DNA of 43,622 bases. Source: Acidobacteriaceae bacterium (lineage in GTDB: Bacteria > Acidobacteriota > Terriglobia > Terriglobales > Acidobacteriaceae). The notes below the pieces were generated by a model. That model was not told the DNA's origin. It ran no database searches and saw only the letters and a program-made list of their open reading frames with translations. Location: the NCBI GenBank assembly GCA_030040425.1, contig JASHTS010000146.1, positions 1 through 43,622 on the forward strand. The letters run 5' to 3'. Made by a program: the position numbers and the translations under genes. Within the stretch, counting starts at the first letter, position 1. The number at the start of each line of letters is the position of its first letter. This document shows positions 109 to 37,047 of this stretch, one piece after another.

Positions 109-1329
109 ATGTCCATTGGTCGCGAACCGGCGTCTTCGCGCGGCAAGGCGTTTGTGCTTTCGCTGCTTCTTGCATTCGTGTTCCTGCCCGGCGCGCGCGC
201 GCAAACCGGGTCGCCGCAGGCTGCGCTCAAGGCTGACCTCGAACGCGGGCAGGCGGCTCTCGCGGCGAAGGATTCGGCGGCCGCGGCAGCAGCGTTTCGC
301 GACGCGCTGAAGATCGATCCCGGGAATGCCGCGGCGCACGCCAACCTGGGCGCGATTGCGTTTTTCCAAGGCGATTGCGGCGCGGCGATGCCGGAGCTGA
401 AGAGCGCGCTCGAGGGAGCGCCGACGCTCGAGAATGCGAAGGGGCTGATCGCCATCTGCGAAAAGCGCATGGGCGCAAAGAATGCGGCGGCCGATCTGGA
501 AGCGGCCTTTGCCGCGATGAAAGACGAGCCCCTGCGCGTGCAGGTGGGCGTGGAGCTGGCCGATCTCTATTACCAGTCTGGCGACCTGGACCGCACGCTG
601 CCGGTGGTGCACGAGCTGGTGACGCTGGCGCCGGATAACGTGGACCTGTTGTTTTTCGCGCAGCGAATTTACTCCGAGATGGCCGACGACACCATGAACA
701 AGCTGGCGCTGCTGGCGCCGGATTCGGCGCGGATGCAGCAGTTGATCGCGGAGAAGCTGATCAATGCCGGCGACCTGAACGGGGCCATCGAGCACTACCG
801 CAAAGCGCTGGCCGAGGATCCGCGGCTGCCGGGGATGCATTTCGAGCTGGCGGAGGCGATCCTCGAAGGCGGCAACGACGCGGCCACGCAGGCAGCGGCG
901 CGCGCGGAGCTGGAAGCGGCGGTGAAGGCCGAGGGCGACAACCCGCGCATTGAATGCACGTATGGCCGCATTGCCGCGCTTCAAGGGAACTTTGCCGACG
1001 CGCTCGCGCATTACCGGCGCGCCTACGCAATGGATCCGGCGAGCGGCGAGGCGCAGCTCGGCTTGGGCACGGCGCTGGCGGAGCAGGATCAGCCGCAGCA
1101 GGCGGTGAAGTATCTGCGCATGGCGGTCGCCTCCGATCCCATGAATGCATCCGCACATTACCGGCTGGCGCGGGCTTGCCGCGCGCTCAATCTGGACGAG
1201 GAGGCGCGCAAGCAGACCGGGCTCTACCAGGAGATTCGCGCGGCCAAGGATCGCACGGCGCAGCTCTACCGGCAGATGAACCGCAGGCCGGAGCCTGAAG
1301 ACGAACTGCCCGGCGAGGGCCAGCCATGA
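109..1329 (+). CDS. Secreted tetratricopeptide-repeat protein
   Basis: A 406-residue protein built almost wholly of TPR-like helical repeats, with repeated patterns such as AAxAHANLGAIAFFQGD and ASGEAQLGLGTALAEQ from about residue 40 to the C-terminus. TPR arrays usually bind partner proteins; no enzymatic motif is seen. The reading frame is open to base 1, but I chose the ATG at 109 because it gives a clean signal peptide (basic N-terminus, hydrophobic core, ARA-Q cleavage site near residue 31) and has GGAG about 12 bases upstream. The stop overlaps the next gene's start (ATGA at 1326-1329), so it is probably co-translated with the sensor kinase and regulator that follow. A periplasmic scaffold for that signalling system is a possible role, but this is inference. 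Confidence 0.8.
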   Translation: MSIGREPASSRGKAFVLSLLLAFVFLPGARAQTGSPQAALKADLERGQAALAAKDSAAAAAAFRDALKIDPGNAAAHANLGAIAFFQGDCGAAMPELKSALEGAPTLENAKGLIAICEKRMGAKNAAADLEAAFAAMKDEPLRVQVGVELADLYYQSGDLDRTLPVVHELVTLAPDNVDLLFFAQRIYSEMADDTMNKLALLAPDSARMQQLIAEKLINAGDLNGAIEHYRKALAEDPRLPGMHFELAEAILEGGNDAATQAAARAELEAAVKAEGDNPRIECTYGRIAALQGNFADALAHYRRAYAMDPASGEAQLGLGTALAEQDQPQQAVKYLRMAVASDPMNASAHYRLARACRALNLDEEARKQTGLYQEIRAAKDRTAQLYRQMNRRPEPEDELPGEGQP

Positions 1330-4316
1330 GGGGCGCGCGCCTCAGAGCGGGTTGGGCGCGCGCGGCGGCCGTTGCGCTGCTCGCGGTGTGCGCGGCGGCG
1401 GCGTGGGCAAGCGCGTCCGAGATACCCCCGGCGGGCTTCACGCGCACGGTGTGGCAGACGCAGAACGGGCTCCCCGAACAGACGGTGCAGGCCTTTGCGC
1501 AGACCCCGGATCACTACTTGTGGATTGGGACCACGGGCGGGCTGCTGCGCTTCGACGGCGCGCGCCTGACGGTATTCGACAGCGAAAACACGCCCGCGCT
1601 TAAGGAGAACAGTGTCTTCGCGCTGATGGTCTCGCGCGATGGGAGCCTGTGGATCGGCACCGAAGGCGGCGGGCTGACGCGCTACGCGGAAGGGAAGTTT
1701 CAATCCTACGGCGCCAAAGACGGGCTGAGCGACGGATTTGTGCGCGCGCTCTTTCAGGACAGCGCAGGGACCATCTGGGTGGGAACAGACAACGGGCTGC
1801 TGCGTTTTGTTCAGAGGCGTTTCGTCCGCGTGGATGGAGTCAACGGTGTGCCCGCGGTCGCGGTGCACGCCATTGCCGAAGACCATCGTGGAGGGTTATG
1901 GGTGGGCGGCTCGCGCCTGCTGCGCTTCGATCACGGAACGGCCCGTGAATACCGGCTTCCGGGAGTGAGCAGCCAGAATCGCGTGAAATCGATCCTGGAG
2001 ACGGCGGATGGGACGGTGTGGGTGGGAACGGTTTCGGGTCTCGAAAAACTGCCGGCGGGCAAGCGCGACTTCGAGCGCGTGGCCGGGATCCAGGGCACCG
2101 TGCGCGTGCTGCGGCAGACGAGCGACGGGAGCTTGTGGATCGGCATGATCGGCGACGGGTTGCGCATGGTGCGCGCGCAGGAGACGGTTACCATGTCTGC
2201 CGAAGACGAGCTGCCCAGCAACACCGTGCTCAACGTGTTTGAAGACGACGAGCGGAATATCTGGATCGGGACGCAGGCAGGGATGGTGCGGCTCACGCGG
2301 ACGCCGGTGCGCATTGTCCCGCTGCCGAAGAATGTGGATTCGGACTTCGGCACAATTTACGCGGATCGCGATGGGACCCTGTGGGTGGTCTCGACGGATG
2401 TTTTCAGGATGCGCAACGGGGCGATCAGCGCGTATACCTTTCCGGGGCTGCGCGGCGTGCCGGTGCGCAACGTGTTTCGCGACCGCGCGGGGGCCCTATG
2501 GATCGGCACCGACGGCGAAGGGATCATTCGCAGCGACGGAGAGAAGAAACTGTGGATGACCACCAGGGATGGCCTGGTGAACAACTTCATCCGCGCCATT
2601 CTGGAGAGCCGCGACGGGAGCATGTGGATTGCGACCGACGAGGGCGTGAGCCACTGGAGCCGGCAGCGGGGATTCACCAACTACCGCATGCGCGACGGGC
2701 TGTCGTACTTCAGCACGCGGGCGCTGCTCGAGGACCGCAGCGGGGACATCTGGATCGGGACGGACCGCGGGCTGAACCGCATCCACGCGGGCGCATTTGT
2801 GCACGATGCGGCCACCGAGGGACTGAGTCAGCGCAAAGTTTGGACCATCGCGGAGGACGCGGACGGAGGGTTGTGGTTCGGCACCCGCGACGACGGCCTC
2901 TATCGATGGAAAGATGGCCGGTTGAGCCATCTCACTACCGACCAGGGGTTGGCCAGCAACAGTATCTACCAGGTGATCGAAGACGCGCACCGCGGATTCT
3001 GGATCAGCGGGCCGAACGGAATTTCGCTGTTGAACCGGCGCGATCTGGATGCCGCGGCCGATTCCCCGGGACAGCGGGTTTCGCTCACGTTTTACGGCAT
3101 CTCCAACGAGGTGAGCGCGGCGCAGATTTACGGAGGGCGGCAGCCTTCGGGGTGCATCGACACGCACGGCGAGGTTTGGTTCCCTACCAATCGCGGACCG
3201 GTGCACATTCTCAACGAGCCGATGCCGAAACCGGTCGTGCCCCCCATCGCCATCAGCGAGGTTCTGGTGAACGGGCGCGCCGTAGCCGCGGACGGGCCGG
3301 TGGTGCTGAACCCCGGCAACAGCCGGCTGGAGATCACCTATGCTCCCATTTTGCTTCGTTCGCAGGACGACGTGCGCTTCCGCTACCGGTTGCGCGGATT
3401 CGACCCGGGCTGGATCGACGCGCAGGCGCGGCGCGTGGCCTCGTACACCAATCTGCCTCCGGGGAAATACACCTTTGAGGTAGCCGCGTCGGAAGGCAGC
3501 AACGCGCGGGGCGGCGCCGGGGCCTCACTGGCGGCGCTCGAAATTGTGCAACGGCCCGTGTTCTACCGCAGGCCGTGGTTCATTGCCGTATCCGTGCTGT
3601 TTCTCGCCGCCCTGATTTTGGGTATCTACCGGTTCCGGTTGTGGCAGATCAAGATGCAATTCGAGGCGGTGCTGGACGAGCGGGGACGGCTGGCGCGGGA
3701 GATGCACGACACCGTGATTCAAGGCTGCGCCAGCGTTTCCGCGCTGATTGAGGCGCTGGCGAGCTTGCTCAAGCGCGAAGACCAGCTCACCCAAAACCTC
3801 ATCGAGCACGCGCGCACGCAACTGCGAAGCACCATCGACGAGGCGCGAGAGGCGGTATGGAACCTGCGCCGCAACAAGGCCGCGGAGAACTCGTTTGGCG
3901 CGGCGCTCAAGGGCATGGCGGAGCAGATCGGCAAGGAGTACAGCATTCCCATCAGCTGCGAGCTCACCGGGCGGCCGTTCGTGCTGAATCAGTTTGCCAC
4001 GCACGAGCTGCTGATGATGGTGCGGGAAGCGTTGTACAATGCGGTTCTGCACGCAAAGCCGGAAAGGATCGACATTCGCGCGGCGTTTGCCCGAAATGAC
4101 CTGACGCTGGAAGTGCGCGACGACGGCTGCGGATTCGACCCCGCGGCGATCGAGGCGCGCACCGATCATCATTACGGCCTGGTAGGCATGCGCGAGCGGG
4201 TGCAGTCGGTGGGCGGAAACTTCAGACTGGAAAGCGCGCACGGCAAGGGGACCGAGGTGCAGATTCAGATTCCGCGCAAAGTATCGGTGGCGCAGAGCGC
4301 GATGATGAGCGCATGA
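1326..4316 (+). CDS. Reg_prop/Y_Y_Y sensor histidine kinase, NarL-partner type
   Basis: A 996-residue membrane sensor kinase. After an N-terminal signal/anchor (about 10-30) come about 13 two-component-regulator propeller repeats with the LWIGTxxGLxRF signature (about 50-590), enough for two seven-bladed propellers. A Y_Y_Y domain (about 650-735) and one transmembrane helix (about 750-772) follow. The cytoplasmic part has a HisKA_3 box LAREMHDTVIQG with the likely phosphorylated His794, then an HATPase domain with the N-box REALYNAVLHA and the DDGCGFDP and GLVGMRER glycine motifs. This is the architecture of extracytoplasmic carbohydrate sensors in Bacteroidota, but here the regulator is a separate protein, not a hybrid fusion. 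It overlaps the TPR gene by 4 bases upstream and the regulator by 4 bases downstream, so a three-gene operon is very likely. Confidence 0.93.
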   Translation: MRGARLRAGWARAAAVALLAVCAAAAWASASEIPPAGFTRTVWQTQNGLPEQTVQAFAQTPDHYLWIGTTGGLLRFDGARLTVFDSENTPALKENSVFALMVSRDGSLWIGTEGGGLTRYAEGKFQSYGAKDGLSDGFVRALFQDSAGTIWVGTDNGLLRFVQRRFVRVDGVNGVPAVAVHAIAEDHRGGLWVGGSRLLRFDHGTAREYRLPGVSSQNRVKSILETADGTVWVGTVSGLEKLPAGKRDFERVAGIQGTVRVLRQTSDGSLWIGMIGDGLRMVRAQETVTMSAEDELPSNTVLNVFEDDERNIWIGTQAGMVRLTRTPVRIVPLPKNVDSDFGTIYADRDGTLWVVSTDVFRMRNGAISAYTFPGLRGVPVRNVFRDRAGALWIGTDGEGIIRSDGEKKLWMTTRDGLVNNFIRAILESRDGSMWIATDEGVSHWSRQRGFTNYRMRDGLSYFSTRALLEDRSGDIWIGTDRGLNRIHAGAFVHDAATEGLSQRKVWTIAEDADGGLWFGTRDDGLYRWKDGRLSHLTTDQGLASNSIYQVIEDAHRGFWISGPNGISLLNRRDLDAAADSPGQRVSLTFYGISNEVSAAQIYGGRQPSGCIDTHGEVWFPTNRGPVHILNEPMPKPVVPPIAISEVLVNGRAVAADGPVVLNPGNSRLEITYAPILLRSQDDVRFRYRLRGFDPGWIDAQARRVASYTNLPPGKYTFEVAASEGSNARGGAGASLAALEIVQRPVFYRRPWFIAVSVLFLAALILGIYRFRLWQIKMQFEAVLDERGRLAREMHDTVIQGCASVSALIEALASLLKREDQLTQNLIEHARTQLRSTIDEAREAVWNLRRNKAAENSFGAALKGMAEQIGKEYSIPISCELTGRPFVLNQFATHELLMMVREALYNAVLHAKPERIDIRAAFARNDLTLEVRDDGCGFDPAAIEARTDHHYGLVGMRERVQSVGGNFRLESAHGKGTEVQIQIPRKVSVAQSAMMSA

Positions 4317-4990
4317 CAGGGATGAAAGACAGCGAACGCGGCAACGAACGGCACAACGACCGAACCAAGGTGCTGGTGGTGGACGATCATCCCATCATGC
4401 GCGTGGGCGTGGCCGCGATCATCAACGCCTGCCCGGATATGGTGGCGGTGGCCGAGACGGGGACAGGCGAGAGCGCGATCGAGCTCTATGAGCGCCACCG
4501 CCCCGACATTACCTTGATGGATCTTCGCCTGCCGGGAATCAGCGGCGTGGAAACCATTCGCAGAATCCGCATGCGTCATCCGCAGGCGCTCTTTGTGGTA
4601 CTCACCACGTACGAGGGCGACGAGGACATTTACCAGGCGCTCGAGGCCGGCGCGCGCGCGTACGTGATCAAGGGCATGCCGCACGAGGTGCTGGTGGATG
4701 CGCTCCGACGCGTTCTCGCGGGCGGGCGGTTTCTGCCTTCGCCGGTCTCGCGGGCGCTGGCTTCGCGCACTCCGGACTCGGACTTCAGCGCGCGCGAGCG
4801 CGAGGTGCTGGAGCTGCTGGCGCAGGGCGAAAGCAACAAGCGCATCGCCGCTCTGCTGGGCATTACCGAGGCCACGGTGAAGTGCCACGTGAGCGTGATC
4901 CTGATGCGGCTGCAGGTGGAAGACCGCACGCAGGCAGTGGTGGCCGCGCTGCAGCGCGGGCTGGTGCACCTGCCGCACCAGGCGCGCTGA
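4313..4990 (+). CDS. NarL/FixJ-family response regulator
   Basis: 225 residues with an N-terminal receiver (about 19-135: VLVVDDHPIMR acidic pair, phospho-acceptor Asp70 in LMDLRLPG, and the LTTY and AYVIKG switch motifs). The C-terminal GerE/LuxR helix-turn-helix (about 160-215) reads SAREREVLELLAQGESN then EATVKCHVSVILMRL. It is the cognate partner of the HisKA_3 kinase it overlaps (ATGA at 4313-4316). Phosphorylation would drive dimer formation and DNA binding; the targets are not visible, although the next genes downstream are polysaccharide hydrolases. An alternative start at ATG 4322 has GGG just upstream. It ends 21 bases from the converging GH2 gene, with no obvious terminator between. 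Confidence 0.93.
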   Translation: MTGMKDSERGNERHNDRTKVLVVDDHPIMRVGVAAIINACPDMVAVAETGTGESAIELYERHRPDITLMDLRLPGISGVETIRRIRMRHPQALFVVLTTYEGDEDIYQALEAGARAYVIKGMPHEVLVDALRRVLAGGRFLPSPVSRALASRTPDSDFSAREREVLELLAQGESNKRIAALLGITEATVKCHVSVILMRLQVEDRTQAVVAALQRGLVHLPHQAR

Positions 4991-5011: not shown

Positions 5012-7558
5012 TCAGGCTCTGGTAACGATGGAGACCGAGGCCGGCGTCAGGCCCGGGGAAGATGCGGTGATTTTCACAGCGCCGGGATTGCCGGTGGATT
5101 GCACGATGGCGAGGCAAAGCCCGTTCGAGGCGAGCCGGTGGCCGGCCTTGAAGTCTTCATGACTGAACGGATCGCCGTTGTCCACGCCGATCAATTTGCC
5201 CTCGCCCTCGACCGAGAAGGCGATCTCATTCGCTGCCGTGGGCACTGCGCGCCCCTGACCGTCGTGCACCTCGACCACGAGATGCGCCACGTCCCGTCGA
5301 TCGGCGGCGAGCCGGTCGCGATCCGCGGATAAAGAGAGACTTGCCGCCTCACCGGTTGTGGTCACGTTGGCGGTTGCGGCGACGGCTCCATCTTTCACGC
5401 CCACCGCCTGAAGCGTTCCCGGCTCGTAGAGCACGTCCCAGGTCAGATGCAGGTCGGAGGTGGTGCGCAACACGCGCGCGCGCGGCGGATAGTCGCCGTA
5501 GATGTGCTCCATGCCCTGGCGCGGGAATTCGTAGCCTTTCACGCCCAGCGATCTCCCGTTGAGGAGAAGCTCCACCGTGTCGCAGTTGGTGAAACACGTG
5601 ACGGGAATCGGCTGGCCCTCCTTTCCTTTCCAGTTCCAGTGCGGAAACAGATGGATCATGGGCGCGGCCGTCCACTGGCTCTGGTAAAAGTAGAAGCCGT
5701 CTTTCTTGAATCCGCACGTGTCCAGCACGCCCGCGGGCGTAATGCGCATGGGCCAGAGGGCTTCGCCGAGATAGTCGATGCCGGTCCACATGAAATCGCC
5801 GGCCACGTAATCGTAGGTGCGGACGAACTGCCAGAGCTCTTCGGCATCGAGTTCGCGATTTTGCTCAAAAAGAAAGAAGCGCGGCTCGGCGCCGGCCTCG
5901 GGGAAGAGATAGCGGTAGTCGCCGCGAATGCCGCCGATGCCGCCGCTCTCGGTTCCCACGACGCGGCGCTCGGGATGCAGTGCGTGATCGATGCTGTAGT
6001 ATTTGTCGGCGCGGTCGCGCCAGCGGTCGACGTAGTTGTAGCCCACGACGTCGAGCGCGGCGAGAAACTCGGGGCGGACGGTGTTCGAAGGCGGCTCGGA
6101 GGCGATTCGGTCGCAGGCCGCGGTGACGGGACGCGTGGGATCTTCGCGATGAAAGATGGTCATCAGCTCGCGCAGCGTTTCCGTCCCATCGGGCGCGGAC
6201 TGATCGCCGATTTCGTTGCCCGCGCTCCAGATGACGATGCACGGATGATTGCGGTCGCGAGCCAGAAAGTTCATCAGATCGCGCTCGTGCCACTCGTCGA
6301 AATTCTCGCTATAGCCGTGGCGGATTTGCCCCTTGGGCACCCGCCACTCGTCAAAGGCCTCGGCCATCACCAGGAAGCCCATGCGGTCGCAAAGGTCGAG
6401 GAACTCCGAGGCGAAGGGATTGTGGCTGGTGCGAACGGCGTTGCAGCCCATTTCTTTCAAAATCGCCAGGCGGCGCTCCCACACGCGCTCTGGAACCGCG
6501 GCGCCCACGCAGCCGGCTTCGGGGTGCACGCACACGCCGTTGAGCTTGATCGGCTCGCCGTTGAGCAGGAAGCCGCGCGCGGCATCGAAGACGGCTTCGC
6601 GGATGCCGAACGGCGTCTCGTAGGTGTCAACCACGGCGCCGGACTCGCGCAGCGTGCTGCGGGCGGTGTAAAGATGCGGATCGGCCGGCGACCAGATACG
6701 CGGCGTGGCGACGCTGAGCTTCTGCACGCATTCCGCCGTGGCGCCGGCAGCGCAGGTTTGCGAAGATTCGAACCTCGCCGTTTCCACGCCGGTCGCGTCA
6801 AGGATTGCAGTCGAAAGCGTGCAGGAGGCTGAGTTGCTGCGCGCGTTGACGATCTTCGTGCGCACCTCGACGGCCGCTGAATCATTTTGAATGCGCGGGC
6901 AGCGGACCGTGGTCCCCCATTGCGCGATGTGCAGCGGACCGAGCACGTGCAGCCAGGTGTGCCGATAGATGCCCGAACCCGAATACCAGCGGCAGTTGGT
7001 CTGGTTGGAGTTGTCCACGCGGACGGCAACCACGTTGTCCGCGCCCGGTCGCAGATAATCGGCAAGCTCGTAAAAAAAGGGAACGAAGCCGTAGGGGCGA
7101 GTGCCGAGGAGATGGCCGTTGATCCAGACGCTCGAATCACGGTAGACGCCGTCGAAGACGAGAGTAACGGTTTTTCCGCTCCAGGATGCCGGAGCGGCGA
7201 AGCGCTTGCGATACCAGCCGACGCCGGTGGGCATGTAACCGCCGGGGCCCGCGGAGGGCGCGTGCTCGTCAACCGGGCCTTCGATGCTCCAGTCGTGAGG
7301 AAGATCCACGGCACGCCAGTGGGCATCGGGGAAGTCGGGCTGCTCGGCTCCGGAGGGATCGCCGGTTTCAAATTTCCAATCGAAATCGAAACTCCCGGCG
7401 ATGCGCGGCGAGGGCGCGTCTTGGACCTGCGGCGGCGCCAGCGCGTCAAGCGCGTGTAGATACGGTGTCGCGCCAAGAGCGGCTGCGCCGCGCGCGGCTG
7501 CGCCCAGCAACGCGCGCCGGGTGAAACGCAGCTCCGACTCCCTGATTTCGTCCTGCAT
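5012..7558 (-). CDS. Tat-exported glycoside hydrolase family 2 (beta-galactosidase-like)
   Basis: 848 residues. The order is typical of GH2: sugar-binding jelly roll (DFDWKFETGD to the SVWINGHLLGTRPYGF motif), Ig-like domain, TIM barrel, then C-terminal Ig-like domains (DUF4982-like, then VEVHDGQGRAVP). The acid/base Glu449 lies in IVIWSAGNEIGD and the nucleophile Glu537 in VVGTESGG. The N-terminus has a Tat-like signal (FTRRALLGAAARGAAALG). I chose ATG 7558 over an in-frame TTG at 7594 because GGAG lies 7 bases upstream of it. GH2 enzymes cleave terminal beta-galactosides, beta-mannosides or beta-glucuronides with retention. The WSAGNE and DUF4982 layout suggests beta-galactosidase, but the exact sugar is inferred. 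It is divergent from the clan GH-A-like hydrolase. Confidence 0.92.
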   Translation of the reverse strand: MQDEIRESELRFTRRALLGAAARGAAALGATPYLHALDALAPPQVQDAPSPRIAGSFDFDWKFETGDPSGAEQPDFPDAHWRAVDLPHDWSIEGPVDEHAPSAGPGGYMPTGVGWYRKRFAAPASWSGKTVTLVFDGVYRDSSVWINGHLLGTRPYGFVPFFYELADYLRPGADNVVAVRVDNSNQTNCRWYSGSGIYRHTWLHVLGPLHIAQWGTTVRCPRIQNDSAAVEVRTKIVNARSNSASCTLSTAILDATGVETARFESSQTCAAGATAECVQKLSVATPRIWSPADPHLYTARSTLRESGAVVDTYETPFGIREAVFDAARGFLLNGEPIKLNGVCVHPEAGCVGAAVPERVWERRLAILKEMGCNAVRTSHNPFASEFLDLCDRMGFLVMAEAFDEWRVPKGQIRHGYSENFDEWHERDLMNFLARDRNHPCIVIWSAGNEIGDQSAPDGTETLRELMTIFHREDPTRPVTAACDRIASEPPSNTVRPEFLAALDVVGYNYVDRWRDRADKYYSIDHALHPERRVVGTESGGIGGIRGDYRYLFPEAGAEPRFFLFEQNRELDAEELWQFVRTYDYVAGDFMWTGIDYLGEALWPMRITPAGVLDTCGFKKDGFYFYQSQWTAAPMIHLFPHWNWKGKEGQPIPVTCFTNCDTVELLLNGRSLGVKGYEFPRQGMEHIYGDYPPRARVLRTTSDLHLTWDVLYEPGTLQAVGVKDGAVAATANVTTTGEAASLSLSADRDRLAADRRDVAHLVVEVHDGQGRAVPTAANEIAFSVEGEGKLIGVDNGDPFSHEDFKAGHRLASNGLCLAIVQSTGNPGAVKITASSPGLTPASVSIVTRA

Positions 7559-29449: not shown

Positions 29450-30271
29450 TCAGGTCCTCACATCGCTTTCATTAGCAGGTCTTGTACGGCGCATGGCAAG
29501 CGATGCCGCCGTACGATTCAATTCAAAGCCATATTCTCTTACCACGCGCATGACGGCCGTGCGCGTCTCGTCCGTGTGATTGCCCTTGTTATGAAGAACG
29601 CGGGAGACGGTGGAGATGGAGACTCCCGCCTTGCGCGCGACCTCTTCAATCGTGATCTTCGCGCCGGAAGAGTGGTGCGTCATATCGGACGGCGCTTCGT
29701 CGATCAGTTGCTCGAGAATGCCGTCAAATCGTTCCCATACCGTCTTTCTCTTGATGTGCAGACGCTCGGCAATCTCGCCATCGTTGGCCCCGCTCGCCAG
29801 CAGATCCAGCAGTTGTATATCGGAAGCGGAAAGACCCGCTCGCGGCGTGCACTCGACGAAACGAGACGCGATATAGGGCGGCAGGTAGCGCTGGCCGTCC
29901 ATGGCCGAATGAATTGCCTCCAGCATCTCCTCATCGGAACTCACCTTGAGAAGATAGCCGTCGGCGCCGGCGAGGATGGTTTGATAGATATCTTCGTCGG
30001 TTTCAAAAGTTGTCAGAATGATGACCTTCGGCGGAGCGTCCAATTTCTTCACGGCGCGCAGCGTTTCCAGCCCGCTCATCTCCGGCATGCGAAGATCGAG
30101 CAGTACGACGTCGACAGGAGATATCTGAATGGCCGCCAGAGCCGCAGCGCCGCCGGCTACGCTTCCGGCCACTGCAAGCTCCGGAAAAGAACTGAGCATG
30201 CTTGACAGCCCCGCCCGCACCACCGGGTGATCGTCGACAATCAAGACGCGAATCTCTTTCGACTTAGCCAT
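29450..30271 (-). CDS. Response regulator fused to a LacI-type DNA-binding domain
   Basis: 273 residues from ATG 30271. Receiver about 6-125: RVLIVDDHPVVRAG (Asp13/14), phospho-acceptor Asp59 in VVLLDLRMPEM, ILTTF, and Lys109 in GYLLKVS, of the NarL type. A GerE-like helix-turn-helix (about 147-193) is recognisable but altered (DGEIAERLHIKRKTVWERF). Residues about 205-260 are a full LacI domain: ITIEEVARKAGVSISTVSRV, then TRTAVMRVVREYGFELN and the hinge-helix pattern NRTAASLAM. The chain ends 13 residues later, so the LacI sugar-binding core is absent. It overlaps the kinase stop by 8 bases. Predicted targets are the palindromes at 33511-33679. This is an unusual architecture; the domain calls are firm, the function is inferred. 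Confidence 0.93.
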   Translation of the reverse strand: MAKSKEIRVLIVDDHPVVRAGLSSMLSSFPELAVAGSVAGGAAALAAIQISPVDVVLLDLRMPEMSGLETLRAVKKLDAPPKVIILTTFETDEDIYQTILAGADGYLLKVSSDEEMLEAIHSAMDGQRYLPPYIASRFVECTPRAGLSASDIQLLDLLASGANDGEIAERLHIKRKTVWERFDGILEQLIDEAPSDMTHHSSGAKITIEEVARKAGVSISTVSRVLHNKGNHTDETRTAVMRVVREYGFELNRTAASLAMRRTRPANESDVRT

Positions 30272-32417
30272 CGCCGTTCGATCTTTTGTGCCCGTTCTGA
30301 TTAATATACGACAGAGAAAACAGCCAGAACGGTTCTGTCTTGCAGGCGGCAGCCACCGTGATCCGGGCGCCCGTCCCGTTGCTCTCCACGCGTAACTTCG
30401 CGCGAATACTGTCAGCTCGGCGTCGCATGCCGATGAGCCCGAATCCTTCCCCATCCTGGTCGACGGGAAAGCCGCGCCCATCGTCTTCCACCACCATGAC
30501 CAACTGCGACCGCTGGTAGTCGATGTTGAGTTTCAAACGTTGCGCGTGGCTGTGCTGAACCGCGTTGGCAATCGCCTCCTGTCCGATGCGAAAGAATGCA
30601 TCCGCAATGCGGACCGGCAGATGCCGGGGCTGCCCGGCGATCTCAGCCTTGAATTGCATCGGGCTTCCCGCCGTCATACGATTTCCCACCTGAGTCAGGG
30701 CGTCAGCCAAACCCTGTTTGTCCAGAATCTCCGGCCGCAGCGAAGTGAGGCTGCGCCGGGCTTCGTCGTGGCTATGACGCACCAACTCGCAGGCTTCCTG
30801 CAACTCCTCCTTGAGTTTTGCCGCATCCACCTTCTGCTGGTCGCGCAGCGTACGGTTGCGTATGGCACGGAGTTTGAATTCCAACCCGGCAAAGCTTTGC
30901 GCCAGGGTGTCGTGCATCTCTTGCGCCAGCCGCTCTCGCTCGCCCAGGACGGCGGCGCGGCGCCGCTCGTCGGCATGACTGTAGAGAAGATGCATGAGAA
31001 AGCCAAGCGCGAGCATTCCCACGGCCATGAGTGCCAGATGTTCAGCCGTCCACCACGGCGGGCCCGAGAGCACTTCCAGATCGTCGGGCGATCGCACGAT
31101 GAGCGCAAAGGGCAGCTTGTTGTCTGTATAGGCAGTTCCGACCAGGCAGATTCCGCGCATGCGGAGCACGCTGCCATTTTTCAACCGGGAAAACCGGATG
31201 GCCGTCTCGCGGGAATTTGAGATCGCATAAAACTCCTGTTGTCCGCCGCTGAGATCGAGCCTCACCACCGGGTCCCCGGTCCGCGACTCCGATTCGAGCC
31301 TGCCTTCCAGTTCCACAAACATGCCGTCATAGCGCCCCATGGCGGCCTGAAGCGGAGTGATGGAGAGAGCTGGGGCCGGCACTACGCCGGCGATGCTCTG
31401 CTCTGAGGCGTTTTCAATGCGCAGGCTTAACCCGTCGAGATGCGCCTCGCCGGCCACCTCCACTTCATCGCCCAGTTTCAATGAAGTGTCCTGGGCGAAT
31501 AATACCTCCGCTCCGGAAGTCGCATCCTGGATGTAGACATGGGGCGAGGTGAGCGTCACCGTGCCGCTTACGCTCACGTGGACGGGCCGGGAAACGGCCA
31601 GCAGGCGAATGCTGCCGATGGGTAGAACCTCTGCATCGGATTTCGTTGAGTTCATCAACAATTCGGCATTGCGGTCGATGCCGTAGGTCCGCGGACTGGG
31701 CCCCTGGCTGGTGGGATAGAGAGAAGTCGGCGTCGGCGATCGCGGCGCGGAGGCAAGTTCTCCCAGATCTTTCAGCCGATGTACGGTCACGTTGCGCCAG
31801 ATGCCGCCGGAACCGACGGCGCGGACGCCGATCTTTCCGGAGCGCGGACATCCGGGATCATAGACCGAGACGTGCGTCCGGTCGCCCGTGTCCAAAGCTG
31901 TGGCCGTTGCCTCGATGTTGCAGCCAATGGCGGAGAGAGTGAGACGATACCAGCGGTTGAGGTCGACACCCCCCGGCATGCGAACCGGCGGAAACTCGAG
32001 CCAACCGTATTCGGCGCGCCCCACTACCAGGGATTGGTCGTCCATGCGCAGGCCGGCATAGTAACCGTTGTAGGAGTCCACGCCCTCGTCGGGGTCGGTT
32101 GCGCGAATGATGAGGCCGGCATCGCCTCGCCCCAGCAGTTGAACCTCTGCTTCCGCCTCGTAATCGGTCCAAAACGGCGACCCGGTGATGAGCTTGGCGC
32201 CCCGCTCATCGGAATCGTCGCGCAGGGCGCCATCCACGATACTCCACGTTCCGCCAAACTCCTGCCATTCGCTGAGCCTTCCCTTGGCGAACTGATCGTG
32301 ATAGGGGAGTCCGCGCACAGGGCTGCGCTGATAAACAAGCGCGGCGACTCCGAGCCCAAGCAGACCGAGCGCCGAAAGCGCGATGGCCTTGATCGCGATG
32401 GATCGCCGCGCCCGCAT
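30264..32417 (-). CDS. Histidine kinase with lectin-like extracytoplasmic domain
   Basis: 717 residues from ATG 32417, which overlaps the previous stop as TGATG and has GGAG 8 bases upstream; an in-frame ATG at 32438 is less likely. TM1 is about 6-28. The extracytoplasmic part begins with a jelly-roll-like domain of the DUF1080/concanavalin-like type (about 38-205: GRLSEWQEFGGTWSIVDGAL, GDAGLIIRATDPDEGVDSYN, VDLNRWYRLTLSAIGCNI), then two OB-like beta repeats (about 265-455). TM2 is about 462-485. The HisKA_3 box RERLAQEMHDTLAQSFAGLEF carries His502, and HATPase motifs are QEAIANAVQHSHA, VEDDGRGFP and GFGLIGMRRRAD. It probably reads the upstream sugar-binding lipoprotein or a polysaccharide fragment directly and phosphorylates the LacI-fused regulator. 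Confidence 0.92.
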   Translation of the reverse strand: MRARRSIAIKAIALSALGLLGLGVAALVYQRSPVRGLPYHDQFAKGRLSEWQEFGGTWSIVDGALRDDSDERGAKLITGSPFWTDYEAEAEVQLLGRGDAGLIIRATDPDEGVDSYNGYYAGLRMDDQSLVVGRAEYGWLEFPPVRMPGGVDLNRWYRLTLSAIGCNIEATATALDTGDRTHVSVYDPGCPRSGKIGVRAVGSGGIWRNVTVHRLKDLGELASAPRSPTPTSLYPTSQGPSPRTYGIDRNAELLMNSTKSDAEVLPIGSIRLLAVSRPVHVSVSGTVTLTSPHVYIQDATSGAEVLFAQDTSLKLGDEVEVAGEAHLDGLSLRIENASEQSIAGVVPAPALSITPLQAAMGRYDGMFVELEGRLESESRTGDPVVRLDLSGGQQEFYAISNSRETAIRFSRLKNGSVLRMRGICLVGTAYTDNKLPFALIVRSPDDLEVLSGPPWWTAEHLALMAVGMLALGFLMHLLYSHADERRRAAVLGERERLAQEMHDTLAQSFAGLEFKLRAIRNRTLRDQQKVDAAKLKEELQEACELVRHSHDEARRSLTSLRPEILDKQGLADALTQVGNRMTAGSPMQFKAEIAGQPRHLPVRIADAFFRIGQEAIANAVQHSHAQRLKLNIDYQRSQLVMVVEDDGRGFPVDQDGEGFGLIGMRRRADSIRAKLRVESNGTGARITVAAACKTEPFWLFSLSYINQNGHKRSNGDG

Positions 32418-33403
32418 CACTGGAACTCCGCTCTCCAATCGTTGGCGATGAATGGTTTTGTCGCGGGGGCATCCACATTGGCCGCCGTGATCAGGTAGGG
32501 CGACAGCTTGATCACCTGGGGATTCCGGCTCTGCCCCTGAGTCAGAAGCTCCATGGCGCGGTATCCCATCTGATAGGTATCTTCGGCAACGAGGGAATCG
32601 ATCTGATGCAGGCGAACCGCGTTGGCGAGCTCGGCGCTCTGTTGCACGCCGACCACCTTCACCTGATCGGTAAGCCCGCGGCTCTTCAGGGCAAGGTACG
32701 CTCCAATGGTTCCTAAAGAGTCGAGCGAAAAGATGGCATTGATCTTGGGATGGGACAAAATCACCTGGCTTGCGATCAGCTCTGCATCGAAGTTGCTGCT
32801 CGCGCCGGTGCGGCGCTCCACGATCGCAATTTCCGGAAAGCGCTCTTCCAGCGAGGAGACGAAACTGCGCAGTATGGCCAGCGAGCTCAAAGATTGCGGA
32901 TCGATGCCGACCACAGCTACTTCGCCCTTTCCCTGCAATACCTCGCCGATTCGAAAAGCGGCCGTGCGACCGGCCATCGCATCGTCGTTCACAACGTAGG
33001 AAAGATTCCGCTGCGCCGGAAGCGAAAGAGAAGATCCGACGACCACGGTGGGAACACCCGCCGCCAGAGCCCGCTCCACGGGCACCATCAAGGCTCGCGG
33101 TTCATCCGGAGCCAGGATCAGTCCCTTGCATCGCGCGTTAATGGCGCGATCGACCATCTCGATCTGCAGTTGCACGTCGTCTTCGCGCGTGGGCGCATTC
33201 CACAGAATATCTACGCCTGCCTTGCGCGCGGCGAACGCGGCGCCCGCATGTTCCGCTTCCCAGAAGGTTGTAGAGGTTGTCCTGGGAATGACTGCGATGA
33301 CGTCGGACCTGCCGCCGCAGGCCCCAACCGCGAGCAGTCCGGGGCACAGGCACAACAGAGGAACCGGTTTCAAGAACGTTCTGAGGCGGAGCATAATCGG
33401 CAT
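32417..33403 (-). CDS. Sugar-binding lipoprotein, type I periplasmic binding protein
   Basis: 328 residues. The signal peptide ends in a lipobox-like LLAVGAC with Cys29 as the likely lipidated residue. The mature protein is a type I periplasmic binding protein (RbsB/Peripla_BP_4): DVIAVIPRTTSTTFWEAEHAG, LQIEMVDRAINARCKGLILAP, VPTVVVGSSL, KGEVAVVGIDPQSLSSLAILRSF, INAIFSLDSLGTIGAYLALKSRG and VKVVGVQQSAE. No ABC permease or ATPase genes are near, so it is unlikely to serve transport and more likely senses sugar for the kinase next to it. XylFII-LytS of clostridia is a known precedent for such coupling. This is also the fold that forms the LacI core, which the regulator of this operon lacks. The frame is open upstream to 33832, but ATG 33403 gives the signal peptide; ATG 33394 is an alternative. 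Confidence 0.9.
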   Translation of the reverse strand: MPIMLRLRTFLKPVPLLCLCPGLLAVGACGGRSDVIAVIPRTTSTTFWEAEHAGAAFAARKAGVDILWNAPTREDDVQLQIEMVDRAINARCKGLILAPDEPRALMVPVERALAAGVPTVVVGSSLSLPAQRNLSYVVNDDAMAGRTAAFRIGEVLQGKGEVAVVGIDPQSLSSLAILRSFVSSLEERFPEIAIVERRTGASSNFDAELIASQVILSHPKINAIFSLDSLGTIGAYLALKSRGLTDQVKVVGVQQSAELANAVRLHQIDSLVAEDTYQMGYRAMELLTQGQSRNPQVIKLSPYLITAANVDAPATKPFIANDWRAEFQ

Positions 33404-33464
33404 GCAATCGGAATCCCGAGGCGCCGAGGCGCCAAAGCTCGACCGAAATCGGCTTGAAAAATTC

Positions 33465-33506
33465 CCTTGACAAAAATAATTGGGCGAGAGTAGCTTCCTG
33501 TCAAGG
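33465..33506. promoter_or_regulatory. Facing TTGACA hexamers as an 8-bp inverted repeat
   Basis: CCTTGACA (33465-33472) and TGTCAAGG (33499-33506) are perfect inverted copies 26 bases apart. Each contains a consensus -35 hexamer, reading rightward and leftward. The leftward one would use an AT-rich -10 near 33474-33481, upstream of the binding-protein operon. The rightward one has only a weak TAGCTT near 33491. They could be overlapping face-to-face promoters or a regulator site. Confidence 0.45.
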
Positions 33507-33510
33507 TTAT

Positions 33511-33524
33511 TGGAAGCGCTTACA
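33511..33524. promoter_or_regulatory. LacI/GalR-type operator candidate O1
   Basis: TGGAAGCGCTTACA is a near-perfect palindrome (6 of 7 positions) with the central CG typical of LacI/GalR-family operators. It lies 107 bases from the binding-protein start and just downstream of the rightward TTGACA. Confidence 0.65.
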
Positions 33525-33536
33525 CAGGCGCAAACC

Positions 33537-33563
33537 AAAGGGCTTCTCGGGAAGCCCTTTTCT
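33537..33563 (+). terminator. Intrinsic-terminator-like hairpin inside the promoter region
   Basis: AAAGGGCTTC (33537-33546) pairs perfectly with GAAGCCCTTT (33551-33560) around the loop TCGG, followed by TCT, so the 3' side reads TTTTCT. A 10-bp stem with a T-rich 3' flank fits an intrinsic terminator for rightward transcripts. It sits between operators O1 and O2 and about 190 bases before the receptor start, so it may act as an attenuator or insulate the promoters. Confidence 0.65.
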
Positions 33564-33572
33564 AGCGCGGAC

Positions 33573-33590
33573 TGTGGAAGCGCTTCCGCA
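33573..33590. promoter_or_regulatory. LacI/GalR-type operator candidate O2
   Basis: TGTGGAAGCGCTTCCGCA is palindromic at 8 of 9 positions and shares the TGGAAGCGCTT core with O1. Its centre is 64 bases from that of O1, about six helix turns, so both would lie on one DNA face and could be looped. Confidence 0.7.
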
Positions 33591-33665
33591 ACCCCCGCAC
33601 GCAAACGCGCCGAGGGTAGGGAACGCCCCGGGAGAAGGTTTCGTTCCTGGCGTTCTTGTCTTGGC

Positions 33666-33679
33666 TGTAAATGTTTACA
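33666..33679. promoter_or_regulatory. LacI/GalR-type operator candidate O3
   Basis: TGTAAATGTTTACA is palindromic at 6 of 7 positions and has the TGTAAA half-site seen in LacI/CcpA-type operators, though with TG instead of CG at the centre. It lies about 75 bases before the receptor start, where it could overlap or follow the promoter. Confidence 0.55.
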
Positions 33680-33741
33680 TGGACCGGCCGCGTGGTTCCC
33701 CACACACCGCCGGCAAAGTACAGCTTCGATCCGATTTTCAT

Positions 33742-33749
33742 GGAGGAGG
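33742..33749 (+). promoter_or_regulatory. Strong ribosome binding site for receptor C
   Basis: GGAGGAGG ends 4 bases before ATG 33754 and decides the start. The frame is open 100 codons further upstream, but those codons run through the operator region and encode no signal peptide. Confidence 0.75.
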
Positions 33750-33753
33750 TCGC

Positions 33754-36700
33754 ATGAAACACAGTGCATGGCAGCCAAAGTCGTGGCCGATGCCGGTTGC
33801 GAAACACTTCGGAGGGGCGCTTCTGGCCGCATTGCTCACCGCCTGCCTCTGCAGCGCAAACATCGCTCGCGCCCAGGGCATCACCACCAGTCAGATCAAT
33901 GGAACCGTCACCGACAGCAGCGGCGCGGTTGTGCCCGGGGCCAGCGTCACGGTAACCAACTCCGCCACCGGCGTTGAGTATCACGTGATGACGGACGACC
34001 TGGGCGGTTATCACGTCACCGACCTGCTCCCCGGAACCTACACGATGGCGGTGACCAAATCCGGATTTGCAACCCAGCAGACTCAGCCTTTCACGCTCAT
34101 CGTCGGCCAATTGTTCCAGCAGAACGTGATCCTGGGGGTCGGCAAGGCCGAGCAAACTATTTCGGTCAACGCCGCGGCATTGCTGCTCAACACCGAATCT
34201 TCCCACGACCAGCAGCTCATTGAGAGCCAGCAGATTGACGATATGCCTCTGAATGGCCGCGATTATCTGCAACTGGCGCAGCTTGACGCCGGTGTGGTGC
34301 CCGTCTCCGGGGTCGCCGGTATCAGCTCTCCCGCATCCTCCTGGGCCTCGGACTCCGGCGTGGTGGCGGTCGACGTTAGCGGCCTGCGGGAAGACGATAA
34401 CAGCTACCTGTACGACGGAATCGAGACGCGCAATTTCTGGTATGGCGCGGTGGGTCTGCAGCCGGATCCGGATATGGTTCAGGAATTCGTGATGATCAAC
34501 TCCGACGCCCCCGCTCAATACGGCGCAGGCGGCGCTTTTGTCAGCGTCGTCACGCGGTCCGGCACCAACCAGTTTCACGGAACCGCGTACGAGTATCTTC
34601 GCAACAATGACTTCGACGCCAGGAATTATTTCGATGTCACCTCGAGTGCCCCGCCCTTCCACCAGAATCAGTTCGGGGCAAGTGTGGGAGGACCCATCAA
34701 GAGGAACCAGCTCTTCTTCTTCGGCAACTACGAAGGTTTCCGCCAGCTCGTGCCCAGCGACGATTACAATCTGGTTCCCAACGGCAACCAGGAAAGCGGC
34801 AACTTCAGCGCGGACACGCAACAACTTTACAATCCCTACATCCAGGATGCGGCCTCGCCGACCGGCTATGCGCCGCTCATGGGCAATCAGGTGCCCAGCA
34901 CCTATTTCAGCGCCATCGGTCAGAAGATCCTGGCGCTCTATCCGGGATCGAATGGCTCCTATTTGAACGGCGCCGCCAATTACTTCAACGTCGCGACCAC
35001 AGTCAATAACTGGAATCAGTTCAGCGGCCGGATCGACTACACGATCTCGCCCACGAACACGGTCTTCGGCCGCTATACCGGCGAATATCAAACCGCGGTC
35101 GGGCCCGGCATGACCCCATACAACAGTCAAACCTTCCCTTCCTCGCCGAAGAATTTGGCGATCGGATGGACGCACGTCTTTTCTCCCCGCCTGGTCAACA
35201 ATGTTCGCTATGGCTGGTCTCACACGGCCGTCGGCCTTGAGCGGTCGGATGGCTACAATACTTCCCTTGCCAACCCACTGGGACTGGTGGACGAAGAGGA
35301 TCAGCCCGGCTCCGACGGCCCTCCCCAAATTGGCGTGAATGGATATGGCAATCCCGGGTCCACCAACGGCACCGATCTCGTGCGAGAAGGTTTGAACATG
35401 TGGACGGAATCCCTGATGTTCCAAAAGGGAAAACATCAGCTGACGACCGGCCTGGACATCCGCTACGAGCCGGCGTATCTCTACGAAGACTGGTCGGCCA
35501 CGTCGATCGGTTTCAATGGAGCGTACACCGGAGACCCGGTCGCCGACCTGTTGATGGGCGTACCGGATACAACCCGGACATCGTTAGGCGGTCCCACGAT
35601 GAATTTGCGGGTGTGGTACCAGGCCTACTACGTTCAGGACAACGACAAAATCAGCCGCAAGCTGACCCTGAACTATGGATTACGCTGGGAGCATCGCTCG
35701 CCTGCGATCGAGGCCAACAATCGGGTGGGCAGCTTCGACGTGGCCACCGGCCAGGATCTGACCTACCCCGCCACCAGCGTTCTGGGGCTCGGGCGGAATA
35801 TGGTCAAGCCGGTGTGGACCAACTGGGCGCCACGGTTCGGCTTCAACTTCTTCCCCTCCGACAAGCTGAATGTCGACGTCAAGGGCGGATTCGGGATGTA
35901 TTATTTGCAGGCCAATATCAACCAATATGAAGTTGAAGTCGACACCACCCAGCTTTACGAGGTCGACTACTTCAATAATCCCGCGGTCGGCCAGCCCCTT
36001 GCCTTTAACCTCGATGGCACGCATGGTCTGCCGGGAATGTTCTCAACCGCGATGACCAATGGAAACTTCTCTGGAGGCGGTCCCACGGTTTCGTTCATCC
36101 AGCCGAACGCTCCCACACCTTACGCTTACGAGTGGAATCTGACCATCGACAAAACCGTCAGGGACTGGCTCTTCGAAGCTGCCTATGTGGGAACCTCGGA
36201 GCGGCACTACGAGGAGCGCAACGAGATCGACCCGCTCAATACCAGCGGCATTCCAATTCTCTATGACACTTGCGGGCCAAACCACAATATCGGCTGCTAT
36301 AGCGGCGTCCAGGAAAACCAGCTCACCGGGACCTCGAACTACGACGCACTGGTAGCCCGTGCGGAAAAGCGGTTCAGCTCCGGATTCTCAACCGCGGTCA
36401 ACTACACGTTGTCCAAGTGCCTGGGCACGCCGTATCAGGATGAATTCACTTGGCACGTCGACATGCATCTCGACTACAGCCACTGCACAGAAGATATCAA
36501 CGATATCTTCACGGCGAACGGCATCTATGAGCTGCCCTTCGGGCACGGCAAGGCGTTCCTCAACACCGGCACGGCTGCCGATGAGATTGCCGGCGGCTGG
36601 AAACTGGCGGGCATCGCGACACTGCGCACCGGTCCCTGGACCACGTTGGGCAGTCAGCAGAACATCGGCTTCTTCGATGGCGCGCTGCCTAACCTGAGTG

Positions 36701-37047
36701 GTCCCATCAATAACCATTCCCTGCATGCGGGTTTGGGCAGAAATGGCAGGCTCGGACCGTATATCAACACCCAAAATGCAGTGAACCTCACCGCCATAGG
36801 CGTGCAGGGCAGCTCGGGAACGCACAATGTGCAGAACCCCGGCTATCAGGATTACGACATTTCGGCTTACAAGAGCTGGAGGTTCGGCGAAAAGCCAAAC
36901 CTGACCTTCCGCGCAGACTTTTTCAATATGTTCAATCGCGTCAATTTCCAATCCATCAGCACTTACGACCTCGCGACCAATTTCGGCGATGTTTCCAGCG
37001 CTTATCCTGCGCGCGAGATCCAGCTGAGCCTGCGGTTTGCTTTCTGA
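33754..37047 (+). CDS. Oar-like TonB-dependent outer-membrane receptor (locus C)
   Basis: 1097 residues with a signal peptide about 1-40 (basic start, LLAALLTACLCSANIARAQ). The carboxypeptidase-regulatory-like domain (about 45-130) has INGTVTDSSGAVVPGASVTV and GTYTMAVTKSGFATQQ. The plug region has IDDMPLNGRDYLQLAQLDAG and MVQEFVMINSDAPAQYGAGG. A long barrel ends IQLSLRFAF with a terminal Phe. It is expected to bind and import oligosaccharides across the outer membrane with TonB. It is divergent from the binding-protein/kinase/LacI-regulator operon and preceded by three operator-like palindromes, so it is the clearest candidate target of that system. A TPR gene follows after 4 bases and a GH5-like enzyme after that. 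Confidence 0.93.
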   Translation: MKHSAWQPKSWPMPVAKHFGGALLAALLTACLCSANIARAQGITTSQINGTVTDSSGAVVPGASVTVTNSATGVEYHVMTDDLGGYHVTDLLPGTYTMAVTKSGFATQQTQPFTLIVGQLFQQNVILGVGKAEQTISVNAAALLLNTESSHDQQLIESQQIDDMPLNGRDYLQLAQLDAGVVPVSGVAGISSPASSWASDSGVVAVDVSGLREDDNSYLYDGIETRNFWYGAVGLQPDPDMVQEFVMINSDAPAQYGAGGAFVSVVTRSGTNQFHGTAYEYLRNNDFDARNYFDVTSSAPPFHQNQFGASVGGPIKRNQLFFFGNYEGFRQLVPSDDYNLVPNGNQESGNFSADTQQLYNPYIQDAASPTGYAPLMGNQVPSTYFSAIGQKILALYPGSNGSYLNGAANYFNVATTVNNWNQFSGRIDYTISPTNTVFGRYTGEYQTAVGPGMTPYNSQTFPSSPKNLAIGWTHVFSPRLVNNVRYGWSHTAVGLERSDGYNTSLANPLGLVDEEDQPGSDGPPQIGVNGYGNPGSTNGTDLVREGLNMWTESLMFQKGKHQLTTGLDIRYEPAYLYEDWSATSIGFNGAYTGDPVADLLMGVPDTTRTSLGGPTMNLRVWYQAYYVQDNDKISRKLTLNYGLRWEHRSPAIEANNRVGSFDVATGQDLTYPATSVLGLGRNMVKPVWTNWAPRFGFNFFPSDKLNVDVKGGFGMYYLQANINQYEVEVDTTQLYEVDYFNNPAVGQPLAFNLDGTHGLPGMFSTAMTNGNFSGGGPTVSFIQPNAPTPYAYEWNLTIDKTVRDWLFEAAYVGTSERHYEERNEIDPLNTSGIPILYDTCGPNHNIGCYSGVQENQLTGTSNYDALVARAEKRFSSGFSTAVNYTLSKCLGTPYQDEFTWHVDMHLDYSHCTEDINDIFTANGIYELPFGHGKAFLNTGTAADEIAGGWKLAGIATLRTGPWTTLGSQQNIGFFDGALPNLSGPINNHSLHAGLGRNGRLGPYINTQNAVNLTAIGVQGSSGTHNVQNPGYQDYDISAYKSWRFGEKPNLTFRADFFNMFNRVNFQSISTYDLATNFGDVSSAYPAREIQLSLRFAF

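Follow-up and report, generated by a model that had tools for sequence, protein, structure and literature searches.

In LacI repressors, the inducer is normally detected by a core that belongs to the repressor's own polypeptide chain. The XylFII-LytS-YesN and CuaDSR systems have a sugar-binding lipoprotein gene beside the genes of a kinase and a regulator, AraPST is another three-component system made up of a binding protein, a kinase, and a regulator, and the kinases of the XylFII-LytS-YesN/CuaDSR type are of types other than HisKA_3. The DNA-binding domain of GltR, the response regulator of the GtrS/GltR system of Pseudomonas aeruginosa, is not a LacI domain. According to the sections of the published accounts cited here, CuaD binds CuaS and improves the response to cellobiose, the output of CuaR is of the YesN/AraC type (PMC10384115), and GltR represses sugar genes and leaves the DNA once it is phosphorylated (PMC4081096). 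Here we describe a locus in a 43,622-nucleotide stretch of the genome of an Acidobacteriaceae bacterium (GCA_030040425.1; contig JASHTS010000146.1; the whole stretch is called the window), the genome being 75% complete. Three overlapping genes occupy positions 29450 to about 33403 of its minus strand and encode, from right to left, a sugar-binding lipoprotein, a histidine kinase, and a response regulator that ends in a LacI headpiece.

We propose, with a probability of about 0.68, that the regulator is a LacI-headed repressor controlled by the lipoprotein and the kinase; as judged from sequence, it is most likely a LacI-type repressor of polysaccharide utilization that is controlled by phosphorylation. 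A sugar would bind the lipoprotein and perhaps also the CBM66-like module of the kinase, and the sugar-loaded lipoprotein would switch the kinase, which would then alter the phosphorylation of the receiver and change operator occupancy. The LacI headpiece would bind LacI-type palindromes, and the regulator would thus repress outer-membrane and polysaccharide-degrading genes until the sugar arrives.

The three gene products and the origin of the LacI headpiece

The regulator matched the Pfam families Response_reg (91 bits) and LacI (PF00356; 57 bits; cutoff, 27), and the receiver, middle, and LacI domains were all visible in a structure model (mean predicted local distance difference test score, 86.6). 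No Peripla_BP core was found in the regulator after the LacI domain, and the chain ends at residue 273, 14 residues past the predicted hinge helix. We aligned 77 LacI-type proteins from the first 104 listed regulators (27 were omitted for redundancy or length) with six LuxR-type regulators (alignment A4). The receiver residues D13, D14, D59, T87, and K109 were kept in 77/77 LacI-type proteins, and the phosphorylation pocket is intact. The headpiece and hinge positions T207, T221, S223, R224, H232, A255, L258, and A259 were invariant in the same 77 proteins. The middle domain is not a typical LuxR helix-turn-helix (GerE match, 19.9 bits, under the cutoff of 23.5). The Arg of the LuxR recognition helix (6/6 LuxR-type regulators) is Trp in 71 of the 77 LacI-type proteins, and the helix-turn Asn (6/6) is Asp in 67. 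Since the usual recognition-helix residues are replaced and the LacI positions are invariant, the middle unit seems to have lost DNA binding, and it is likely to serve now as a dimerization module or spacer. Three other proteins (P0108 to P0110) have a receiver joined straight to a LacI headpiece, without the middle LuxR domain, and are possibly a second form of receiver-LacI fusion; their genomic context was found in 0/272 genomes by a search that had no positive control and is thus uninformative about absence.

The lipoprotein has its cysteine within a lipobox-like VGAC motif. Its best-scoring solved relatives are ATP-binding cassette (ABC)-type sugar-binding proteins, and it matches the structures 5xsd, 5xsj, and 5xss, which we take to be XylFII, at 67 to 68 bits. 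The structure model of the kinase has a likely N-terminal transmembrane helix followed by the large predicted periplasmic part, in which more beta domains lie between a beta-sandwich (residues 52 to 214 in the model) and a second long helix. A Foldseek search retrieved CBM66 (4b1m; 172 aligned columns; template modeling score, 0.78 to 0.80 by target); the aligned range was not printed, and, judged by the size of the match, the CBM66-like fold is likely to be the beta-sandwich. The same periplasmic module recurs on longer PAS-containing proteins with HisKA, not HisKA_3 (P0150 to P0153 and P0179).

The original prediction, made from the DNA sequence of the window alone, had named an overlapping trio of a binding lipoprotein, a HisKA_3 kinase, and a coreless LacI-ended regulator. 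The open reading frames and Pfam domains confirm these products (the junctions are one TGATG overlap and one 8-bp overlap), and what the prediction had missed was the LuxR-like middle domain, the CBM66-like fold, and the LacI-less sister operons described below. It had also stated that no ABC transporter genes accompany the binding protein. In agreement, a search of the window for LSGGQ-type signature motifs (not a full domain search) recognized no importer and matched only the periplasmic part of the kinase, which is taken as a chance match. The motif search of the eight LacI-type loci found none beyond kinase matches in seven and one real-looking match in L158, about 5 kb from the operon of that locus.

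The fusion recurs among related proteins. Both receiver and LacI domains are present in 106 of the 120 best regulator relatives listed from a search of 5.8 billion proteins, and we therefore reject a sequencing or frame artifact. The full C-terminal profile was matched in at least 8 of the 398 genomes of the family (i.e., G000, which is that of the window, G633, G407, G469, G453, G139, G579, and G337; six genera, including that of the window) and in at least 3 of 396 genomes drawn from the whole phylum (G000, G139, and G337), both counts being lower bounds because 10 candidates were scored per genome. A whole-protein profile search of the phylum (six candidates scored per genome) was swamped by ordinary receivers. 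A scan of genome contigs gave three full-length relatives among 80 kept loci (L010 to L012), which repeat G633, G337, and G579, and no new carriers were added by genus searches with fuller scoring (2, 4, 9, 28, and 80 genomes). The co-occurrence of the trio in relatives, which had been set beforehand as a check, was observed in all seven other carriers, with the lipoprotein, kinase, and regulator genes in the same order. In the window, L155, L156, L157, and L159, the lipoprotein gene and an outer-membrane gene are divergently oriented; in L160 and L161 such a gene is nearby in another arrangement, and none was found by BLAST at L158. Directly upstream of the lipoprotein gene in L161 (Edaphobacter lichenicola M8US30) is an open reading frame for a 125-amino-acid coreless LacI helix-turn-helix protein (6037-6414, plus strand; 66 bits). 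Genome G519 has a 113-amino-acid open reading frame with a LacI-like headpiece close to a contig end (L162:9343-9681, minus strand) and, about 3 kb from it, a second such headpiece frame and a binding-protein-like frame.

Six sister operons (L163 to L166, L168, and L169) combine relatives of the lipoprotein (37 to 45% identical) and of the kinase (40 to 45%) with a regulator that ends in an ordinary LuxR domain, and two further loci (L167 and L170) have the kinase and a LuxR-ended regulator without the lipoprotein. These eight LuxR-type loci were picked from the best receiver matches, and the set is not exhaustive. Both kinds of operon occur in G139 (L158, LacI-type; L166, LuxR-type). The split between LacI-type and LuxR-type operons had 100% support in the kinase, lipoprotein, and concatenated trees and 96% in the receiver tree. 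The trees are unrooted, and the lipoprotein-free pair groups on the LuxR side, so a single graft of the LacI headpiece fits. Because lipoprotein and kinase are paired with an ordinary regulator of the LuxR type in the sister operons, the headpiece was probably added later to a lipoprotein-kinase-regulator system that already existed. On balance, we favor a scenario in which the headpiece was grafted behind the LuxR domain, which lost DNA binding and became a dimerization module, and in which phosphorylation through lipoprotein and kinase replaces induction of a core by sugar; response regulators of this kind would form a new output class. The original prediction had instead read the locus as one LacI-like protein split across the membrane, with one half for sensing and the other for DNA binding. 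As a description of function, that phrase fits; as history, it probably does not. The lipoprotein is closest to ABC-type binding proteins, the headpiece follows a LuxR domain that has degenerated, and the existence of the trio with a plain LuxR-type regulator argues against the splitting of one ancestral LacI in two, a reading that we reject.

Candidate operators and putative target genes

The LacI-type palindromes that had been predicted in the divergent promoter were recovered there as operators 1 to 3 (see the table). When one mismatch to TGNAARCGYTTNCA was allowed, matches were found in seven of the eight LacI-type loci (two to five each), most of them adjoining the operon, and in one of the eight LuxR-type loci (a single match); the window contains four, three of which are intergenic. 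Palindromes with up to two mismatches were not significantly enriched over the whole window (8 versus a mean of 4.6; 12/100 shuffles reached 8), so the weight of those in the window comes from their position and conservation.

The exact form, TGKAARCGYTTMCA, resembles the GalR and CcpA consensus sites. It occurs in 21 copies in the eight carrier genomes, versus one copy of the reversed pattern, and in 112 copies in the other 390 genomes, versus about 124 reversed (hand count; i.e., chance level). All eight carriers have at least one exact site, versus 95/390 other genomes (Fisher P = 1.6e-5), and six have at least two, versus 15/390 (P = 2.7e-7). This enrichment is partly circular, since the pattern was derived from carrier operons, yet only 5 of the 21 sites lie in the lipoprotein promoter region. 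Among the remaining 16, 13 are at glycoside hydrolase (GH) or outer-membrane genes; several of these target genes are orthologues, and the sites are therefore not all independent. The GH51 assignment rests on the Alpha-L-AF_C domain, two GH5-like proteins without a Pfam match were assigned by N-terminal likeness to the two with one, and in G337 the GH5-like gene starts 582 bp from the operator. The theme of the predicted regulon in the carriers is an arabinoxylan-like polysaccharide, which makes a pentose a likely ligand in the genomes with such targets. The ligand in the window itself may differ, since the neighboring genes there are of the GH31, GH2, and GH27-like kinds.

Features of the window and exact operators in the carrier genomes
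Feature	Position or genome	Strand	Remarks
Response regulator: receiver, degenerate LuxR-type middle domain, and LacI headpiece, without LacI core	29450..30271	-	
Hinge-helix-like segment, residues 251-259	29495..29521	-	Low model confidence in part
LacI helix-turn-helix, residues 207-250	29522..29653	-	PF00356
Middle LuxR-fold domain, residues 147-192	29696..29833	-	Recognition-helix Arg replaced by Trp179
Receiver domain, residues 9-120	29912..30247	-	
HisKA_3 sensor histidine kinase, large predicted periplasmic part	30264..32417	-	HisKA_3 and HATPase_c
Predicted periplasmic beta-sandwich, kinase residues about 48-214	31776..32276	-	Pfam 3keto-disac_hyd at 48-169
Type I sugar-binding lipoprotein	32417..33403	-	Peripla_BP_4, 137 bits; start codon 33403 or 33394
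Predicted promoter towards outer-membrane gene	33467..33496	+	TTGACA, 18 bp, TAGCTT (weak -10); operator 1 just downstream
Predicted -35 box towards lipoprotein gene	33499..33504	-	TTGACA; 6 bp beyond operator 1
Operator 1, TGGAAGCGCTTACA	33511..33524		0 mismatches
Operator 2, TGGAAGCGCTTCCG	33575..33588		1 mismatch
Operator 3, TGTAAATGTTTACA	33666..33679		1 mismatch; same sequence on other strand in L159
Outer-membrane barrel protein (divergent gene, predicted target), CarboxypepD_reg domain	33754..37047	+	PF25183, 616 bits
Exact operator at GH51 arabinofuranosidase	G453, G407, G469, G139, G579		
Exact operator at GH5-like gene	G453, G407, G469, G337		
Exact operator at GH67/GH43 divergent pair	G407		
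Exact operator at GH39	G579		
Exact operator at outer-membrane barrel gene	G579, G337		
Exact operator at GtaA-like gene	G453		
Exact operators, unassigned	G453:C14, G579:351054		

Elsewhere in the window, positions 1326 to 4990 carry a separate pair of a Reg_prop/Y_Y_Y histidine kinase and a LuxR-type response regulator, near GH2 and melibiase genes. PADLOC gave a single weak helix-turn-helix match.

Mode of action and rival explanations

A TTGACA box starts 40 to 45 bp upstream of 7 of 31 carrier sites (the window, L159, L155, L156, L157, and L161 twice), compared with a mean of 0.36 and a maximum of 3 for random nearby positions (2,000 draws); three matches away from the genes at issue (window 27537, L160 4015, and L161 10890) were left out. 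Given the -10-like boxes, the operator would start approximately 7 to 9 bases past the transcription start, as for a roadblock repressor. At three GH5-like promoters, weak -35-like and -10-like boxes flank the operator. The exact operators G453 L155:8716, G407 L190:5100, and G469 L192:5091 fall within GH51 signal-peptide codons (V-S-A-S), if the assigned starts hold, and the flanking residues differ. Between the divergent promoters of the window, the two TTGACA boxes that face each other (33465-33506) make up an inverted repeat of 8 bp, CCTTGACA...TGTCAAGG, which is one base shorter in L159.

Several observations weigh against repression by the LacI-tailed regulator. The TTGACA spacing was noticed before it was tested, and 24 of the 31 sites lack it. 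Operator 1 lies just beyond the -35 box that faces the lipoprotein gene, a position that is as compatible with activation or autoregulation as with repression. The genome of the window has one exact operator only, and in G139 there is none near the L158 operon and just one elsewhere, at a GH51 gene. In G453, a LacI-type gene adjoins one remote operator (L186), and in the noncarrier G496, for which the genus search found no LacI-tailed regulator, an exact operator adjoins a gene that resembles the G453 GtaA gene by N-terminal likeness. Ordinary LacI proteins may therefore use some of these sites.

The best-surviving rival, which we nevertheless consider unlikely, is that the regulator is an activator at the same operators, with phosphorylated dimers that, bound upstream of the lipoprotein promoter, turn on the operon and the outer-membrane gene. 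NarL-type regulators are mostly activators, and operator 1 of the window and of L159 ends 6 to 7 bp from the -35 TTGACA facing the lipoprotein gene. However, the seven sites downstream of a TTGACA promoter-like box, the three GH5-like operators between promoter boxes, and the three GH51 operators inside signal-peptide codons (again, if the starts hold) are poor positions for an activator. Less probable again is that the operators are those of ordinary full-length LacI repressors encoded by the same genomes, the LacI-tailed regulator acting elsewhere. The operator consensus is of the general LacI/GalR/CcpA kind, and the G453 and G496 sites would fit, but 295 of the 390 noncarriers have no site, and the remainder match the reversed control in number; moreover, a LacI-type gene was found in just one of the 11 remote carrier regions of approximately 10 kb, and the operators mostly adjoin the operon itself. 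A third rival, in which a decayed LacI headpiece is carried along and DNA is bound through the middle LuxR domain, is very improbable, since the LuxR contact positions are lost and the headpiece and hinge are invariant, even though the LuxR fold is still present in the structure model.

Within the proposed repressor mechanism, we lean toward a polarity in which sugar would turn the kinase on and the phosphorylated regulator would leave the DNA, because GltR works in this manner. The opposite polarity is also possible; DesR-like regulators usually bind DNA in the phosphorylated state.

Comparison with known systems

If the proposal is correct, the sugar that governs a LacI-type regulon need not enter the cytoplasm, and the locus shows how a bacterium swaps the input of a classic repressor while keeping its operator code. 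The operator motif would be usable for acidobacterial plant-fiber regulons, and the regulator would be a natural part connecting LacI operators with two-component sensing. A literature search found no description of a LacI output in any response regulator, a weak negative because subscription literature was partly outside its reach.

The separate kinase and regulator genes, the LacI output, and the lack of an AraC domain rule out a hybrid two-component system. The GtrS/GltR system differs in its operator consensus, tgGTTTTTc, and the cited sections of its description mention no binding protein (PMC4081096). The top solved relatives of the regulator are NarL/FixJ regulators (DesR, LiaR/VraR, and NarL), with which it shares the receiver and the middle fold; unlike in these, the LuxR recognition-helix residues are lost, and DNA binding has apparently moved to the appended LacI headpiece. 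With the LacI/GalR/CcpA repressors it has the headpiece and hinge in common (the hinge by sequence, with low model confidence), but it lacks their ligand-binding core; the place of the core is taken by a receiver plus a LuxR-fold domain, which lie on the opposite side of the headpiece. By its predicted domains, the regulator thus falls outside the LacI family, because it has no core, and outside the standard NarL type, because its LuxR unit is degenerate. The recurrent trio of an exported sugar-binding protein, a membrane kinase, and a regulator is that of a three-component system, and it differs from XylFII-LytS-YesN and CuaDSR in its LacI output, its HisKA_3 kinase with a CBM66-like fold, and its predicted repression. 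Phosphorylation seems to control the headpiece here, the sugar being sensed on the outer side of the membrane, and the system would function as a three-component sugar sensor coupled to the head of a LacI-type repressor.

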